This document shows positions 12,898 to 50,246 of a stretch of 64,000 nucleotides of DNA, piece after piece. The DNA is from an uncultured Bacteroidota bacterium (GTDB taxonomy: Bacteria; Bacteroidota; Bacteroidia; Flavobacteriales; Flavobacteriaceae), in contig CACHZY010000007.1 in NCBI GenBank assembly GCA_902584445.1, positions 1 to 64,000 on the forward strand, read 5' to 3'. Both the position numbers and the translations under genes were made by a program. Below the pieces are notes generated by a model that saw nothing but the letters and a program-made list of their open reading frames with translations, did no database searches and had not been told where the DNA came from. Position 1 is the stretch's first letter; each line of letters starts with the position of its first letter.

Positions 12898-12970
12898 CAC
12901 GGGTTGAGAGGCTCGAACTCCCGACACCTGGTTTTGGAGACCAGTGCTCTACCAACTGAGCTAAACCCGT
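12898..12970 (-). tRNA. tRNA-Trp (CCA)
   Basis: Minus strand ACGGGTT...CTCCAAA anticodon loop...GTTCGAGCC...AACCCGT; complete cloverleaf arms. Confidence 0.96.
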
Positions 12971-36806: not shown

Positions 36807-36878
36807 AGCCAATGACGGGATTTGAACCCGTGGCCTCTTCCTTACCAAGGAAACGCTCTACCCCTGAGCTACATCGGC
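36807..36878 (-). tRNA. tRNA-Thr (GGT)
   Basis: GCCGATGTAGCTCAGG...CCTTGGTAAGG...GGTTCAAATCCC...CATTGGC. Confidence 0.96.
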
Positions 36879-36886
36879 AAAAAAAG

Positions 36887-36959
36887 AGCGGGAGACCGGG
36901 TTCGAACCGGCGACATTCAGCTTGGAAGGCTGACGCTCTACCAACTGAGCTACTCCCGC
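36887..36959 (-). tRNA. tRNA-Gly (TCC)
   Basis: GCGGGAGTAGCTCAGTTGGTAGAGC...CAGCCTTCCAAGCTG...CTCCCGC. Confidence 0.96.
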
Positions 36960-37013
36960 ATTTTACAGATACTAAGATCTACAAATAAATTTAATATTTC
37001 AAATTTTGTCTTG

Positions 37014-37095
37014 TGGGGAGAGCAGGATTCGAACCTGCGAAGGTAAAACCAACAGATTTACAGTCTGTCCTCGTTGGCCGCTTGAGTATCTCCCC
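37014..37095 (-). tRNA. tRNA-Tyr (GTA)
   Basis: GGGGAGATACTCAAG...CAGACTGTAAATCTG...long variable arm...TCTCCCC. Confidence 0.96.
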
Positions 37096-37115
37096 CAAAC
37101 TTTGTGATCTATAAG

Positions 37116-37189
37116 AGCCGATGGAGGGACTCGAACCCACGACCTGCTGATTACAAATCAGCTGCTCTAGCCAGCTGAGCTACATCGGC
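37116..37189 (-). tRNA. tRNA-Thr (TGT)
   Basis: GCCGATGTAGCTCAGCTGG...CTGATTTGTAATCAG...CATCGGC. Confidence 0.96.
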
Positions 37190-43185: not shown

Positions 43186-43764
43186 ATGAAAAATTATTTT
43201 ACAATTTCAATAATCACTACAATATTAATTTTTACAACCATTTCAATAAACGCTCAAGAAAAATTATTAAATATAGAAAGTAGTGTAATAAGATGGTATG
43301 GAGAAGAAATTACAGGGAAACAGCATTATGGAGATCTTAAGTTTTCTAGCGGTAATATTCAAATTAATAATAAAGTTGTTTCTAGCGGTAATTTTATAGT
43401 AAACATGAATTCATTAACGGTAGAAGATTTGTCGGGTGGTGGTAAAAAACGCCTTGAAGGTCATTTAAGGTCATCTGCCTTCTTCGGTGTTTCAGATCAT
43501 CCACAGGCATCGTTAAATATATCTTCAATGGTTGATATTGATGGTGATTCTCAAATATTAGATGGAGAATTAACAATAAAAGGTATTACACATCCAATTA
43601 ATTTTTCAATTACATTAAACTCTGAAAATAATGCAACAGCTATGCTGGTTTTTGACAGATCAAAATACGATGTTCGTTTCCGATCTGGATCTTTCTTTGA
43701 TGAGTTAGGAGATAAATTGATTCTGGATGACATTAAACTCGAAGTGGCGCTTGAATTTAATTAG
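43186..43764 (+). CDS. YceI family periplasmic protein
   Basis: Signal peptide; IESSVIRWYGEEITGKQHYGDLKFSSGNI, LTIKGITHPINFSI, FDRSKYDVRFRSGSFFDELGD. Confidence 0.92.
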   Translation: MKNYFTISIITTILIFTTISINAQEKLLNIESSVIRWYGEEITGKQHYGDLKFSSGNIQINNKVVSSGNFIVNMNSLTVEDLSGGGKKRLEGHLRSSAFFGVSDHPQASLNISSMVDIDGDSQILDGELTIKGITHPINFSITLNSENNATAMLVFDRSKYDVRFRSGSFFDELGDKLILDDIKLEVALEFN

Positions 43765-43785: not shown

Positions 43786-43815
43786 TTGTCAAATAGTAAT
43801 TTTGAATTATATTTG
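43786..43815 (+). promoter_or_regulatory. trp operon promoter TTG-N19-TATATTTG
   Basis: TTG at 43786-43788, TATATTTG at 43808-43815, spacer exactly 19 nt; matches Bacteroidota sigma-A consensus TTG-N19-TAnnTTTG. Confidence 0.7.
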
Positions 43816-43819
43816 CAAA

Positions 43820-43867
43820 ATGAGATTTAAAACCGAAGACATCAATTGGTGGAACGACTTGACCTAG
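43820..43867 (+). CDS. trpL: trp leader peptide MRFKTEDINWWNDLT
   Basis: Short ORF with tandem TGG TGG, between promoter and a terminator hairpin, upstream of trpE. Confidence 0.82.
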   Translation: MRFKTEDINWWNDLT

Positions 43868-43902
43868 TTCAAATCGTGATACTGCTGTTTCATATATTTA
43901 GG

Positions 43903-43931
43903 AGGCTTGTCATTACGACAAGCCTTTTTTA
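43903..43931 (+). terminator. trp attenuator terminator
   Basis: AGGCTTGTC-ATTAC-GACAAGCCT perfect 9 bp stem followed by TTTTTT, 10 bp before trpE ATG. Confidence 0.88.
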
Positions 43932-43941
43932 ATTTAGGACA

Positions 43942-45351
43942 ATGGAAAATAAAAAGAAGTACAGACTTAAATCCATACATAGAAAAATACTTGCGGATAC
44001 ATATACGCCAGTAAGTGTATATCTTAAAATAAGGGATCAATTTCCTCACAGCTTACTTTTGGAAAGTAGTGACTATGATGCTAGAGCTAATAATTTTTCC
44101 TATATATGTTGCAATCCAATCGCATCCATTAGTATATCAAATGGCAATATTGATTACAATTATCCTGATGGTTTAAAATACAGCAGAGGGATAGATTTAA
44201 AAGATAATATTCCTAATCTTATACAATCTTTTTCAAACCAATTTAAATCTGAAAAACACCAATTTAAATTTATTACCAATGGATTATTTGGATATCTCTC
44301 TCACGAGGCAGTTGGTCATTTTGAATCGATCTCTTTGGATGAAAATAAAAGTCATTTTAACACCCCGGATATTTACTATGCTGTTTATCAAAACATTATT
44401 GCGATTAGTCTTTTTAATCATGAGGCACACGTATTTTCCAATAGTTTAAGTGGAGAGGACAACCTGGATGAGATTGAACAGATTATCAAAAAAGATAATA
44501 TTGCAACTTATCAATTCGAGAAAAAGGGTGAAAAGTCATCGAATCTTACAGACGAAGAATTTCTAGCTCTTGTTCAAAAAGGAAAAGAACACTGCTTTAG
44601 AGGAGATGTTTTTCAATTGGTGCTTTCCAGAAGATTCTCTCAAGGCTTCACAGGAGATGAATTCAATGTTTATCGCACCTTAAGATCTATCAATCCATCT
44701 CCTTACCTTTTTTTCTTTGACTATGGTGACTTTAAAATTTTTGGGAGTTCTCCTGAAGCCCAGCTTATTGTAAAGGACGGAAAAGCTGAAATTCATCCTA
44801 TTGCAGGAACTTTTAAACGAACAGGAAATGATGCTGAGGACCAGTTATCAGCAGAACGATTAGCTGCTGACCCAAAAGAGAACAGTGAACACGTAATGCT
44901 TGTAGATTTAGCGAGGAATGATCTTAGTAGAAATGGTACTGAAGTAGTAGTTGAGAAAAATAGAGAAATTCAGTTTTTCTCCCATGTGATTCATTTGGTT
45001 TCAAAGGTAACTGGATTATTGAAGTCTAAAACAGCATCATATCAAATGGTCGCAGACACCTTTCCAGCAGGAACATTAAGCGGAGCCCCGAAGCACAAAG
45101 CACTTCAATTGATTGACAAATATGAAAATGTAGCCCGTAATTTTTACGGAGGTGCATTGGGGTATATGGATTTTGATGGGAATTTTAACCACTGCATTAT
45201 CATCCGGTCTTTTATGAGTAGAAATCAAATGCTTCATTATCAAGCTGGTGCAGGAATTGTCTCGAAATCCGTCCCGGAAAATGAATTACAAGAAGTATAT
45301 AATAAATTGGGTGCTTTAGACAAAGCGCTAAACATCGCAGAAAAACTTTAG
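43942..45351 (+). CDS. trpE: Anthranilate synthase component I
   Basis: 469 aa; GDVFQLVLSRRFSQ, IHPIAGTFKRTG, FPAGTLSGAPKHKALQLIDKYE. Confidence 0.96.
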   Translation: MENKKKYRLKSIHRKILADTYTPVSVYLKIRDQFPHSLLLESSDYDARANNFSYICCNPIASISISNGNIDYNYPDGLKYSRGIDLKDNIPNLIQSFSNQFKSEKHQFKFITNGLFGYLSHEAVGHFESISLDENKSHFNTPDIYYAVYQNIIAISLFNHEAHVFSNSLSGEDNLDEIEQIIKKDNIATYQFEKKGEKSSNLTDEEFLALVQKGKEHCFRGDVFQLVLSRRFSQGFTGDEFNVYRTLRSINPSPYLFFFDYGDFKIFGSSPEAQLIVKDGKAEIHPIAGTFKRTGNDAEDQLSAERLAADPKENSEHVMLVDLARNDLSRNGTEVVVEKNREIQFFSHVIHLVSKVTGLLKSKTASYQMVADTFPAGTLSGAPKHKALQLIDKYENVARNFYGGALGYMDFDGNFNHCIIIRSFMSRNQMLHYQAGAGIVSKSVPENELQEVYNKLGALDKALNIAEKL

Positions 45352-45352
45352 A

Positions 45353-45916
45353 ATGAAAAAAATATTTGTCATAGATAATTACGATTCGTTTACCTATAAT
45401 TTAGTGCATTACTTAGAAGAACTTGGTGCCAGAGTTACTGTGAAGCGAAATGATCAATTTGAACTTTCAGAAATAGAAGACTATGAATATTTATTACTTT
45501 CTCCGGGGCCAGGAATTCCTGATGAAGCAGGGTTGTTAAAAGCGGCAATTGAAAGATATGCTCCCTCTAAAAAAATATTAGGTGTTTGCTTGGGTCAACA
45601 AGCTATCGGTGAAGTTTTTGGAGCAAAGCTAAATAATCTAAATACTGTTTTCCATGGGGTAGCCACACCAATAAATATTACAGAAAAGGATCTTTTATTT
45701 TATGATTTACCAGATAGTTTCGAAGTAGGACGGTATCATTCCTGGGTTGTTAAAACCCCCTTACCGGAAGATTTAGTAGCAACTTCTTTTGACAATAATA
45801 AACAATTAATGTCATTAAGACATAGGAATTACTCTGTAAGAGCCGTTCAATTTCACCCAGAGTCAATTTTGACCATGTATGGTAAAAAAATATTAGAAAA
45901 CTGGATCAATAGTTAA
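45353..45916 (+). CDS. trpG: Anthranilate synthase component II (glutamine amidotransferase)
   Basis: IDNYDSFTYNLVHYLEELG, LLSPGPGIPDEAG, GVCLGQQAI, VQFHPESILT. Confidence 0.96.
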   Translation: MKKIFVIDNYDSFTYNLVHYLEELGARVTVKRNDQFELSEIEDYEYLLLSPGPGIPDEAGLLKAAIERYAPSKKILGVCLGQQAIGEVFGAKLNNLNTVFHGVATPINITEKDLLFYDLPDSFEVGRYHSWVVKTPLPEDLVATSFDNNKQLMSLRHRNYSVRAVQFHPESILTMYGKKILENWINS

Positions 45917-45919
45917 ATT

Positions 45920-46915
45920 ATGAGAGCAATTCTAAACAGACTAGCACAGCATGAAACTCTTGAGGTTTCAGAGGCTGAAAAAATACTAACCGGAATCGCT
46001 GAAGGGCAATACAACCCAAGTCAAATTGCAGCTTTCTTAACTGTTTTTATGATGCGTAGCATAACGCTAAAAGAGTTAGAAGGGTTTCGGAAAGCATTGC
46101 AAAAGCTATGTTTGTCTATAGATTTGAGCGACTTTTCCCCGATTGATTTATGTGGAACAGGAGGAGATGGTAAAGACACTTTCAACATTTCAACCCTTGC
46201 GTCCTTTGTTACCGCTGGGGCCGAAATAAAAGTTGCCAAACACGGAAATTATGGGGTTTCCTCAGGTTGTGGTTCAAGCAACGTGTTGGAGTATTTAGGA
46301 ATAAAATTTTCAAATGATGGTGATTTTTTAAAGCGCTGTATAGAAGAAGCAGGAATCTGTAACCTTCATGCACCACTTTTTCATCCAGCTATGAAAAATA
46401 TTGCGCCAATTAGAAGAGAACTAGGGGTGAAAACATTTTTTAATATGTTAGGTCCATTGGTCAATCCAGCCTACCCAAAATATCAACTAACTGGAGTTTT
46501 TAACCTTGAGCTGGCAAGGATTTACGGTTATCTTTTTCAGAATTCAAAACAGCATTTCACAATTCTGTTCTCCCTGGACGGATACGATGAAATTTCCCTA
46601 ACTGGACCTACAAAAGCAATTAGAAATAAAGGAGAGTTTATTATCGATGCATCGGATTTCGGAATTCATTCTTTAAAAGCAGAAGCAATTAGTGGTGGGT
46701 CAAATATCCCATCATCGGCAGCAATATTTACAAAGGTTTTAGAGGGAAAAGGAAGTAAAGCTCAAAATAATGTTGTCTGCGCTAATGCCGCAATGGCAAT
46801 TGCTACTGTTACTGATTGTAATCCAAAAGAGGGATTTGAAAAAGCAAAGGAGTCATTATTGTCAGGTAAAGCAAATAAAGCTTTCAAAAAACTACAAAAG
46901 TTAAGCGCCACATGA
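45920..46915 (+). CDS. trpD: Anthranilate phosphoribosyltransferase
   Basis: DLCGTGGDGKDTFNISTLASFVTAGA, KHGNYGVSSGCGSSNVLE. Confidence 0.96.
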   Translation: MRAILNRLAQHETLEVSEAEKILTGIAEGQYNPSQIAAFLTVFMMRSITLKELEGFRKALQKLCLSIDLSDFSPIDLCGTGGDGKDTFNISTLASFVTAGAEIKVAKHGNYGVSSGCGSSNVLEYLGIKFSNDGDFLKRCIEEAGICNLHAPLFHPAMKNIAPIRRELGVKTFFNMLGPLVNPAYPKYQLTGVFNLELARIYGYLFQNSKQHFTILFSLDGYDEISLTGPTKAIRNKGEFIIDASDFGIHSLKAEAISGGSNIPSSAAIFTKVLEGKGSKAQNNVVCANAAMAIATVTDCNPKEGFEKAKESLLSGKANKAFKKLQKLSAT

Positions 46916-47697
46916 GTATTTTAAATGAAATAATTTCAGATAAAAAAAAAGAAGTAGAGCTAAGAAAGAAACTTTTCCCATCAACCTATTGGGAAAAATC
47001 TCCTTTATTTGGTCGAAAAACCTATTCATTAGCAAATAAACTTAAAAATAGCCATTCGGGGATTATCGCTGAACACAAACGACGATCTCCTTCTAGATCT
47101 AATATCAACAATGGCTTATCGATATCCGAAGTAGCAATAGGCTATGAGGCAGCAGGGGTATGCGGTATGTCTATCCTCACTGATTTGAAATATTTCGGTG
47201 GAAGTCTAGAAGATCTTAATGCCGCAAGGGCCGTATGTAAATTTCCATTATTAAGAAAAGAATTTATCATTGATCCTTATCAAGTGATTGAGGCCAAGGC
47301 AAATGGAGCTGACGTAGTCCTATTAATTGCAGCCATATTGAGTCGAGATAAAATCAAATTACTTTCCGAAACAGCTAAAAGCCTTAACTTGGAAGTGCTT
47401 CTTGAAGTTCATAATGAAAAGGAACTGGAAAAATCAATTATGCCAAGTTTGGATATGTTGGGTGTTAATAATCGTAATTTAAAAACATTCGAAGTAAATC
47501 TAGAAAAGAGCAGGGAGTTAGCCCCTAAAATCCCGGATGATTTTGTAAAGGTATCCGAGAGCGGAATAAGTAAAATTGAGTCAATTCAGGATTTAAAAAC
47601 TTTTGGTTTTCAAGGGTTTTTAATTGGCGAGAGCTTCATGAAGTCAGCTGATCCTGGAGATTCGGCTTTAAATTTCATTAAAAAACTAGAATCATGA
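46912..47697 (+). CDS. trpC: Indole-3-glycerol phosphate synthase
   Basis: IIAEHKRRSPSRSNIN, LLRKEFIIDPYQVIEAKANGADVVLLI, LGVNNRNLKTFEV. Confidence 0.96.
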   Translation: MSILNEIISDKKKEVELRKKLFPSTYWEKSPLFGRKTYSLANKLKNSHSGIIAEHKRRSPSRSNINNGLSISEVAIGYEAAGVCGMSILTDLKYFGGSLEDLNAARAVCKFPLLRKEFIIDPYQVIEAKANGADVVLLIAAILSRDKIKLLSETAKSLNLEVLLEVHNEKELEKSIMPSLDMLGVNNRNLKTFEVNLEKSRELAPKIPDDFVKVSESGISKIESIQDLKTFGFQGFLIGESFMKSADPGDSALNFIKKLES

Positions 47698-48320
47698 AAC
47701 TGAAAGTTTGTGGAATGCGATCCTCAAAAAACATAATTAATCTTGCGAGGATTATGCCAGATTATATGGGCTTTATTTTTTGGGAAAATTCAAAACGTTT
47801 TGTGAGTAATTCGACACCAGATTTAGGGGAAACAGTAAAAAAAGTCGGGGTATTTGTGAATGCAAGCTTGGAATACATCAAAGATTGTATCGAAGCTCAT
47901 AAACTAAAAGCTGTTCAACTTCACGGAAATGAAAGCCCTGAACAGTGTGGTGAGCTAGCAGAAGTTGATGTCGAGGTTATCAAAGCTTTTTCTATCCAAA
48001 GTGAGTCTGACTTCAGTGAGACAGTGGTTTATGAATCAGTTTGTGATTATTTCCTTTTTGATACTAAAGGAGAACTACCAGGTGGAAATGGACTCCATTT
48101 TGACTGGACTGTATTAAAGGATTATCCCTCTAAAAAACCATTTTTCTTAAGTGGGGGAATAGGACCGAATGACTGTCTTGCAATTGCATCAATAATTAAA
48201 TTAAATTTACCACTTTATGCTATTGATGTAAACAGTAAATTTGAAATTGAACCAGGTTTTAAAAACATCCAAAGCATAAAAGAATTTAAATCAAAATTAA
48301 ACGATGAGATATCAGGTTGA
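47694..48320 (+). CDS. trpF: Phosphoribosylanthranilate isomerase
   Basis: MKLKVCGMRSSKNI, GFIFWENSKRFV, KAVQLHGNESPEQC, FFLSGGIGPND. Confidence 0.95.
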   Translation: MKLKVCGMRSSKNIINLARIMPDYMGFIFWENSKRFVSNSTPDLGETVKKVGVFVNASLEYIKDCIEAHKLKAVQLHGNESPEQCGELAEVDVEVIKAFSIQSESDFSETVVYESVCDYFLFDTKGELPGGNGLHFDWTVLKDYPSKKPFFLSGGIGPNDCLAIASIIKLNLPLYAIDVNSKFEIEPGFKNIQSIKEFKSKLNDEISG

Positions 48321-49485
48321 TGAAAAAGGTTTTTACGGTGATTTCGGTGGAGCATATATTCCAGAAATGCTTTATCCTAATATCGAAGAATTAAGAAAAA
48401 GTTATATCGAAATTAGTGAGGATGGAGAATTCCAAAAAGAGTTTAAATCTTTACTCAAGGAATATGTTGGGAGACCAACACCATTATATTTTGCTGAGCG
48501 TCTATCAGACAAATACAACACAAAAATTTATCTTAAAAGAGAGGATCTATGTCATACAGGTGCACATAAGGTTAACAATACTATTGGACAAATTCTTTTG
48601 GCCAAACGCTTAGGTAAAAATCGAATTATAGCCGAAACAGGTGCTGGACAGCACGGAGTAGCGACAGCTACTGTTTGTGCTTTAATGGGGATTGAATGCA
48701 TTGTTTATATGGGTGAATTGGACATAAGAAGACAGGCACCCAATGTTGCGCGGATGAAAATGCTTGGAGCTGAGGTTCGACCAGCGCAATCAGGGAGCAA
48801 AACATTGAAGGATGCCACCAACGAAGCTATTAGGGATTGGATAAACAATCCTGTGGATACTCATTATATAATTGGTTCTGTAGTGGGCCCACACCCCTAT
48901 CCTGATATGGTTGCACGCTTTCAATCTGTTATTAGCTCGGAAACAAAACTACAATTGATGGAAAAAGAAGGTCGCGATTATCCTGACCATGTAATTGCCT
49001 GTGTAGGTGGGGGAAGCAATGCAGCTGGATTATATTTTCATTACTTAAATGATTTAAGGGTAAATATTATTGCAGTAGAAGCTGCTGGAAAAGGAATTGA
49101 TTCTGGCAAAAGTGCTGCCACATCAGCTTTAGGAAAAGAGGGAATAATTCACGGGAGTAAAACCTTGTTGATGCAAACACCTGACGGTCAAATCACCGAA
49201 CCTTATTCAATCTCAGCAGGATTAGATTATCCAGGGGTAGGACCAATGCACGCTCATTTGTACAGAAGTCAACGTGCCGAGTTTATTTCCATTCCAGATC
49301 AAGAAGCGATGGATTGGGGATTAACACTTTCACAAACGGAAGGAATTATCCCTGCAATTGAAACTGCCCATGCATTTGCAGTGCTGGATATAAGACAATT
49401 CAGTCCCAATGAAATCATTGTATTCAACTGCTCAGGTAGAGGAGATAAAGACTTAGATACCTATATTGACTATTTCAAACTCTAA
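48304..49485 (+). CDS. trpB: Tryptophan synthase beta chain
   Basis: LKREDLCHTGAHKVNNTIGQ, AETGAGQHGVATATVCALMG, CVGGGSNAAG. Confidence 0.98.
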   Translation: MRYQVDEKGFYGDFGGAYIPEMLYPNIEELRKSYIEISEDGEFQKEFKSLLKEYVGRPTPLYFAERLSDKYNTKIYLKREDLCHTGAHKVNNTIGQILLAKRLGKNRIIAETGAGQHGVATATVCALMGIECIVYMGELDIRRQAPNVARMKMLGAEVRPAQSGSKTLKDATNEAIRDWINNPVDTHYIIGSVVGPHPYPDMVARFQSVISSETKLQLMEKEGRDYPDHVIACVGGGSNAAGLYFHYLNDLRVNIIAVEAAGKGIDSGKSAATSALGKEGIIHGSKTLLMQTPDGQITEPYSISAGLDYPGVGPMHAHLYRSQRAEFISIPDQEAMDWGLTLSQTEGIIPAIETAHAFAVLDIRQFSPNEIIVFNCSGRGDKDLDTYIDYFKL

Positions 49486-50246
49486 TGAATAGAATCGATC
49501 TAGCATTTCAAGGAGACCAAAAATTATTGTCTATTTATTTTTCTGCTGGTCATCCTAATCTTGACGATACAATCCCTATAATTAAGGCGTTACAATCCAG
49601 TGGGGTGGATATGATCGAGATAGGTTTGCCTTTTAGTGACCCTTTGGCGGATGGCCCAACTATTCAGAAAAGTTCTACCAAAGCTCTTAGAAATGGCATG
49701 AGAACCGAAAAGCTTTTCCAACAATTGGAAAATATTAGAAATGAAATTAATATCCCGTTGGTATTAATGGGATATTTTAACCCCATGATGCAATTTGGTA
49801 TTGAAAGTTTTTGCCAAAAATGTAAATCCATTGGAATAGACGGATTGATTATACCCGATCTTCCAGTTGAAATCTATCATGAAAATTATAAAAGTTTATT
49901 CGATAAATACGGTTTATATAACATGTTTTTAATTACACCTCAAACACCTGAAGACAGGATTCGTTATATTGATGAGGTATCGAATGGATTTATCTACTTG
50001 GTAAGTACTGCAAGCGTAACAGGTGCAAAAAGCACATTTGGTGAAGCCCAAGCCAAATACTTCAAACGAATAGGAAACATGAAACTAAAAACACCTCAAT
50101 TGGTTGGGTTTGGCATTAGTAATTCAGCAACCTATAAAGCTGCATCAAAATACAGTCGAGGAGCAATTATTGGCTCAGCATTCATTAATTTTTTAGAAAA
50201 AGAAGGCGTACATAAAATTGCTAACTTTATAAGTAGTATTCGTTAA
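49485..50246 (+). CDS. trpA: Tryptophan synthase alpha chain
   Basis: MIEIGLPFSDPLADGPTIQKSSTKAL, GLIIPDLPVE. Confidence 0.97.
   Translation: MNRIDLAFQGDQKLLSIYFSAGHPNLDDTIPIIKALQSSGVDMIEIGLPFSDPLADGPTIQKSSTKALRNGMRTEKLFQQLENIRNEINIPLVLMGYFNPMMQFGIESFCQKCKSIGIDGLIIPDLPVEIYHENYKSLFDKYGLYNMFLITPQTPEDRIRYIDEVSNGFIYLVSTASVTGAKSTFGEAQAKYFKRIGNMKLKTPQLVGFGISNSATYKAASKYSRGAIIGSAFINFLEKEGVHKIANFISSIR

Follow-up and report, generated by a model that had tools for sequence, protein, structure and literature searches.

How is tryptophan synthesis regulated in a flavobacterium whose trp operon is preceded by a short reading frame with adjacent Trp codons and by a hairpin, and which bases of the leader RNA would keep that hairpin from ending transcription? 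To our knowledge, Bacteroidota lack Shine-Dalgarno sequences, and attenuation has been little studied in this phylum. A sequence-only reading of the 64-kb stretch of DNA analysed here in full (the window) had proposed ribosome-mediated transcription attenuation upstream of trpE. When the sequence was re-read, the letters and coordinates given for the leader ORF with its Trp-Trp codons proved right, as did the perfect 9-bp hairpin with a T-tract just before trpE. The features of the locus are as follows.

43786..43815, plus strand: predicted Bacteroidota promoter, with a weak TTG (43786-43788) and the -7 element TATATTTG (43808-43815)
43820-43867, plus strand: trp leader peptide ORF of 15 codons (ATG 43820-43822, TAG 43865-43867), product MRFKTEDINWWNDLT and stop, from the sequence
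43847-43852, plus strand: Trp regulatory codons TGG TGG (W10/W11), from the sequence and leader alignments
43854..43877, plus strand: 1:2 hairpin (anti-antiterminator), ACGA-C-UUGA / UCAA-A-UCGU, from folding and covariation
43874..43886, plus strand: region 2, putative 5′ strand of the antiterminator, UCGUGAU (43874-43880), AC (43881-43882) and GCU (43884-43886), from the swap test, pair counts and constrained folding
43904..43918, plus strand: region 3, putative 3′ strand of the antiterminator, AUUACGA (43912-43918), GGC (43904-43906) and GU (43909-43910), from the same three analyses
43900..43930, plus strand: intrinsic terminator 3:4, from sequence, folding and covariation
43942..50246, plus strand: controlled operon trpE-trpG-trpD-trpC-trpF-trpB-trpA, from ORFs and NCBIfam matches

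The leader ORF, rich in Trp codons and predicted to be translated, lies between the promoter and trpE, whose ATG is at 43942 and which heads the gene order trpE, G, D, C, F, B, A. Between this ORF and the structural genes stands the intrinsic terminator, with the stem AGGCTTGTC (43903-43911) / GACAAGCCT (43917-43925), a G-U extension to 43900/43928, the loop ATTAC (AUUAC in RNA, 43912-43916) and a tract of six T residues (43925-43930). We scanned the window on both strands for a short ATG ORF with Trp-Trp codons and, within the next 110 nt, a terminator of 8 bp or more. The trp leader was the single site returned, and 40 shuffled windows gave none. The region 43790-43950 folds with a z-score of -2.44, and two of 200 shuffled sequences folded equally well.

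We considered whether this arrangement is retained among relatives. TrpE was found in 138 of 151 genomes of the family, in 19 of 22 genomes of the same genus, and in many genomes across the class and phylum. The exact pattern CGTGA-N(15-45)-CTTGTC-N(2-8)-ACGACAAG, which expects the commonest loop, so that a genome without a match may still have an attenuator, was present exactly once in each of 93 of the 151 genomes of the family, and the reversed control gave no match. A comparison of contigs and coordinates placed it just upstream of trpE in 91 of the 138 trpE-bearing family genomes. Nearly all leaders without an exact match were read, and almost all of them retain both a terminator and a short Trp-codon ORF. 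Among 139 family leaders called automatically, by a procedure that itself demanded Trp codons, 110 have three such codons, 28 have two and one has four; the first TGG precedes CGTGA by about 28 nt almost everywhere, and one TGG supplies the sole invariant columns in an alignment of 60 family leaders. The automatic calls of leader or terminator failed in 24 leaders, of which seven were checked by eye and proved to be members whose stems are odd, whose contigs are truncated or whose Trp codons are fewer. In all, over 100 related trpE leaders support ribosome-mediated attenuation, and the objection named in advance, that homologous trpE leaders might lack the Trp-Trp codons or the terminator, was not borne out across the family.

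Several individual cases deserve mention. Two relatives from the same genus, L148 with one Trp codon and L154 with Trp-Leu, retain region 2 and the terminator. In a small genome (G035, L109), trpE has neither a Trp-Trp leader nor a terminator upstream, and the attenuator seems to have been lost. In two genomes of one genus, trpE contains one in-frame TGA (G483:C5:232867-234270 and G506:C21:319-1719), attributable to recoding or to sequencing error.

The hairpin might instead be the terminator of the yceI-like gene that ends at 43764, upstream of the leader, with the Trp-Trp ORF a coincidence; no other terminator was noted between that gene and the trp promoter. However, upstream of trpE, the family and the class conserve the Trp-codon ORF, the distance from it to region 2 and the terminator, and the combination was absent from all 40 shuffled windows. 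We therefore regard this explanation as extremely improbable.

Does the leader belong to a catalogued RNA family? At gathering thresholds, the only Rfam matches in the window were tRNAs (four tRNA genes form a cluster at 36807-37189 on the minus strand, and another lies at 12898-12970). At a relaxed threshold, the comparison with the Rfam trp leader families, which had been suggested as a check, gave Bacteroid-trp (RF01692) as the best match, at 24.4 bits and an E value of 2.2, below the gathering score of 49. Four of 14 other leaders tested (L008, L015, L035 and L111) reached that score. In the 60-leader alignment, which includes L008 and L015, the RF01692 landmarks, namely the UGG repeat, CGUGA, AGGCUUGUC and the position upstream of trpE, are those of a homologue; in the cmscan alignment of the window, many pairs of the consensus stem between the Trp-codon strand and the post-CGUGA strand are marked as non-standard. 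Bacteroid-trp has been catalogued as a structured RNA since 2010 (Weinberg et al. 2010, PMC2864571). Like our leader, it lies upstream of Bacteroidota trp genes and has tandem UGG codons in a short ORF, a CGUGA-like element and a AAGGCUUGUC arm; unlike our leader, the Rfam model stops at GGCUUGUC, in the 5′ arm of the terminator, and because it ends before the terminator loop, it has neither a complete terminator nor a 2:3 antiterminator. By all comparative evidence, the trp leader is a diverged relative of Bacteroid-trp, below the Rfam threshold, and a real attenuator. T-box and TRAP-like devices control trp genes in Firmicutes, and another Trp-sensing RNA device of this kind could be imagined here, but no T-box or other Rfam family reached threshold at the trp leader locus and the leader takes the form of an ORF with Trp codons in tandem, so that we give this idea a practically negligible probability.

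If the locus is an attenuator, what would compete with the terminator? The sequence-only reading had noticed a second, weaker hairpin at about 43854-43877, overlapping the end of the leader ORF. This hairpin is present, with the helices 43854-43857/43874-43877 and 43859-43862/43869-43872 and a folding energy of -4.8 kcal/mol on its own. Its 5′ strand starts two nucleotides past the Trp codons, and its 3′ strand ends with UCGU, the same four bases with which UCGUGAU begins. The 1:2 hairpin hides region 2. It also covaries: across the leaders, the complementarity between regions 1 and 2 was 11.81 within leaders versus 10.52 after swapping (z 8.3, 0 of 2000 permutations).

Region 2 has a second partner. 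UCGUGAU (43874-43880) of the window can pair with AUUACGA (43912-43918), a stretch made up of the whole apical loop of the terminator and the two bases at the start of its 3′ arm; a G-U accounts for one of the seven core pairs, and the pairing and the terminator are mutually exclusive. Contact with the terminator 5′ arm is limited to two small extensions, AC:GU and GCU:GGC. Pairing of region 2 with the 5′ arm alone was considered and rejected, being too short in the window. Most relatives pair UCGUGA with UCACGA. Elsewhere in the family, the divergent leader L103 pairs UCGCGA with UCGCGA, and both strands have changed in L110 (GGAUUCAG:CUGAAUCC), L125 (ACCGGAU:AUCCGGU) and L111 (UGUCGCAAU:AUUGCGACA). 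In other families, both strands have likewise changed in L208 (GAUGAACA:UGUUCAUC), and the pairing is divergent in L192 (UUGUGAACGG:CUGUUCACAG) and L174 (GGGAAA:UUUCCC). We also considered that the complementarity to the loop might be a by-product of two conserved strings, and rejected this because divergent leaders with different strings retain it.

We scored each leader against its own terminator loop and against the loops of other leaders, ignoring phylogeny, a test that is conservative because loops are swapped among relatives. First, in 48 divergent leaders, the complementarity to the own loop was 14.67, compared with 11.11 after swapping (sd 0.37, 0 of 2000 permutations). Second, in sliding windows over leaders with 65 distinct loops, the signal peaked 21-36 nt past the first Trp codon (z about 11.7) and, on the terminator side, at 0 to +3 from the loop centre (z 10.2 and 8.9), dropping on both sides of these peaks. 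Third, in the alignment of 60 diverse family leaders, the 2:3 helix was 93.0% paired, with eight cells showing double changes; no score among 500 shuffles reached its covariation score, and slid controls were at most 58.3% paired. Two bases of the 3′ strand of this helix also belong to the terminator stem, and constraint on that stem could add to the signal at those positions; region 2 itself lies outside the terminator. In the same alignment, the terminator stem was 99.6% paired, with double-sided changes at nine of nine pairs. Across the trpE upstream regions, whose comparison had been proposed as a check for covariation, 1:2, 2:3 and 3:4 all covary. The parts of the switch, their spacing and this covariation come from sequence and comparison.

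Is this the classic design of the proteobacterial type, with an antiterminator whose sole partner is the 5′ arm of the terminator? In some lineages of the class, the trp antiterminator does appear to be directed at the 5′ arm (L184 and L210, both from one family; e.g., CGGGGCUU:GAGCCCCG), and the hisG leaders described below are centred on the end of that arm. In trp leaders, however, the covarying signal sits at the loop, with a z of 10.2 there versus 1.3 nine bases upstream of the loop centre, and in the window just short pairs reach the 5′ arm. A purely 5′-arm-directed antiterminator is thus unlikely at this locus. Because the strong, conserved part of the antiterminator pairing is with the terminator loop, we favour the classic scheme with region 3 moved into the loop. 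The sequence-only reading had seen no obvious antiterminator pairing with the 5′ arm, and indeed only GCU:GGC and AC:GU touch this arm; an antiterminator nevertheless exists, its strong conserved part on the loop. Its further suggestion, that switching may differ from the classic 2:3 design, holds for the shift of region 3 into the loop and fails for the logic, which is that of 1:2, 2:3 and 3:4.

The Escherichia coli trp attenuator shares with the window the Trp-Trp leader peptide, the mutually exclusive 1:2, 2:3 and 3:4 pairings and the stalling logic. In E. coli, region 3 coincides with the terminator 5′ arm, and trpL is preceded by a 5′ leader that carries a ribosome binding site. Here, the covarying core comprises the apical loop and the beginning of the 3′ arm, and we predict a leaderless leader ORF. 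An open-access literature search found no loop-directed antiterminator in published work.

How might ribosome position select between these structures? In the model that we propose, transcription would start on the leader AUG and a ribosome would load at the very 5′ end of the RNA. When charged tRNA-Trp is scarce, the ribosome would stall at UGG UGG and cover the 5′ strand of the 1:2 hairpin; with 1:2 blocked, UCGUGAU would be free to pair with AUUACGA, together with the small 5′-arm extensions, once these exit the polymerase. With 2:3 formed, the terminator hairpin would be unable to nucleate and trpE-A would be transcribed. When Trp is plentiful, a ribosome at the stop codon would cover region 2 and the terminator would form, and without translation, region 2 would be held part-time by the 1:2 hairpin. 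The start site, ribosome stalling and read-through all belong to this model.

Folding with and without a ribosome footprint, another check proposed earlier, was performed on nascent RNA with the footprint barred from pairing and assumed to extend 13 nt downstream of the first base of the A-site. For window RNA ending at 43919-43921, the predicted probability of the 2:3 helix was 0.66-0.96 with the A-site at W10/W11, 0.14-0.65 in ribosome-free RNA and 0.00 with the A-site at the stop codon. In 128 family leaders, with a helix chosen from the same sequences, the mean probability was 0.92 at the first Trp codon, 0.95 at the second and 0.30 without a ribosome, and it fell to 0.01 at the stop codon; switching was predicted in the expected direction in 126 of the 128 and in the reverse direction in none. 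The corresponding values for 25 leaders of other families were 0.72 (Trp), 0.04 (stop) and 0.25 (no ribosome). In silico, then, ribosome position selects the structure. The complete terminator (-16.3 kcal/mol, versus -10.1 kcal/mol for the 2:3 duplex of the window) wins in every ribosome state, and because the finished terminator outcompetes 2:3 at equilibrium, the switch must act kinetically, during transcription.

The proposed start site was predicted from the promoter. The -7 consensus of Flavobacterium johnsoniae is TAnnTTTG (also given as TAHHTTTG), with its G at -5 (PMC6847099), and because of this G the +1 position in the window is predicted at 43820, the A of the leader AUG. Among the called members of the genus, the G of TAnnTTTG precedes the leader ATG by 5 nt, the listed exception, L153, being a leader called from an internal ATG. 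Across the family, the spacing is 5 or 6 in 43 of 139 leaders and up to about 18 nt more in others. Leaderless mRNAs are rare in flavobacteria, at 5.5% in Flavobacterium psychrophilum (PMC9723704). The leader ORF is probably leaderless, a prediction from promoter position only.

A predicted RNA that begins with the AUG of its leader ORF, together with leader-peptide attenuation, recalls rnTrpL, the trpL RNA of Sinorhizobium meliloti, which differs in phylum and sequence and for which trans roles of both the RNA and the peptide have been shown (PMC7298713). Might the leader likewise act mainly in trans, with the terminated RNA of about 110 nt or the peptide regulating other genes as rnTrpL and peTrpL do? 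The start on AUG and the terminated RNA do resemble rnTrpL (PMC7298713), but cis control accounts for the conserved features, and the region after the trp terminator, in which a copy complementary to the loop was looked for, lacks one. We consider a mainly trans-acting leader very unlikely. We are, in contrast, quite confident in reading the trp leader of the window as a ribosome-mediated attenuator with a loop-directed antiterminator, in which transcription most likely starts on the leader AUG.

Bacteroid-trp has been noted upstream of trp in F. psychrophilum (PMC6414381), and a transcriptome map of this related flavobacterium reports, besides clues of leader-peptide attenuation upstream of operons for amino acids, structured 5′ elements for hisG and pheA (PMC9723704). 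The same kind of control was proposed there from transcriptome maps; in the available portions of these reports, the attenuators were predicted without antiterminator pairing or covariation (PMC9723704; PMC6414381). The general kind of switch is already known in the phylum, and the placement of the antiterminator is what we add: on the evidence of sequence, the present study contributes the putative antiterminator, its loop-centred geometry with class-wide covariation, and the predicted leaderless leader ORF.

Related designs precede other operons. The hisG leaders of the family, with HHH(H) peptides, have the same anatomy as the trp leaders. Their region 2 is complementary to the end of the 5′ arm and the first loop base (CUCAAGCG:CGUUUGAG), and the flanking base covaries (own 18.54 versus swapped 16.99, 0 of 2000). 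In hisG leaders L255-L284, we also observed an element of 9-16 nt between the terminator and the hisG ATG, directly ahead of the latter. It is complementary to the end of the terminator 5′ arm and the loop in most of 25 leaders, and it covaries (own 21.96 versus swapped 15.47, sd 0.83, 0 of 2000). It might serve in the refolding of read-through mRNA or be targeted in trans by the terminated his leader RNA. In genomes G022 and G090, where no trpE was found, a complete trp-type module lies upstream of an aspartokinase gene, with KDKK replacing WWW in the leader peptides LKLINILNKKDKKVHLRRTS and VLNIFKQKDKKIYLRRMS (L129 and L130, identical to L225 and L226). This module seems to have been re-targeted to another amino acid, perhaps lysine.

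On balance, we lean slightly towards the view that Bacteroidia have an attenuator design of their own, in which the antiterminator nucleates at the apical loop of the terminator from a site fixed 21-36 nt past the regulatory codons, with a leaderless 5′ AUG in some genera and with re-use of the module, as in the his version, which involves the 5′ arm plus the loop, and in the Lys-rich leader at aspartokinase. The location of the antiterminator offers a mechanism for Bacteroidota that can be tested base by base, and the approach shows how comparable switches that respond to other amino acids can be found in genomes where they escape Rfam. Should transcription indeed start on the leader AUG, this would raise the question of how ribosome loading is timed with the polymerase when there is no 5′ leader.
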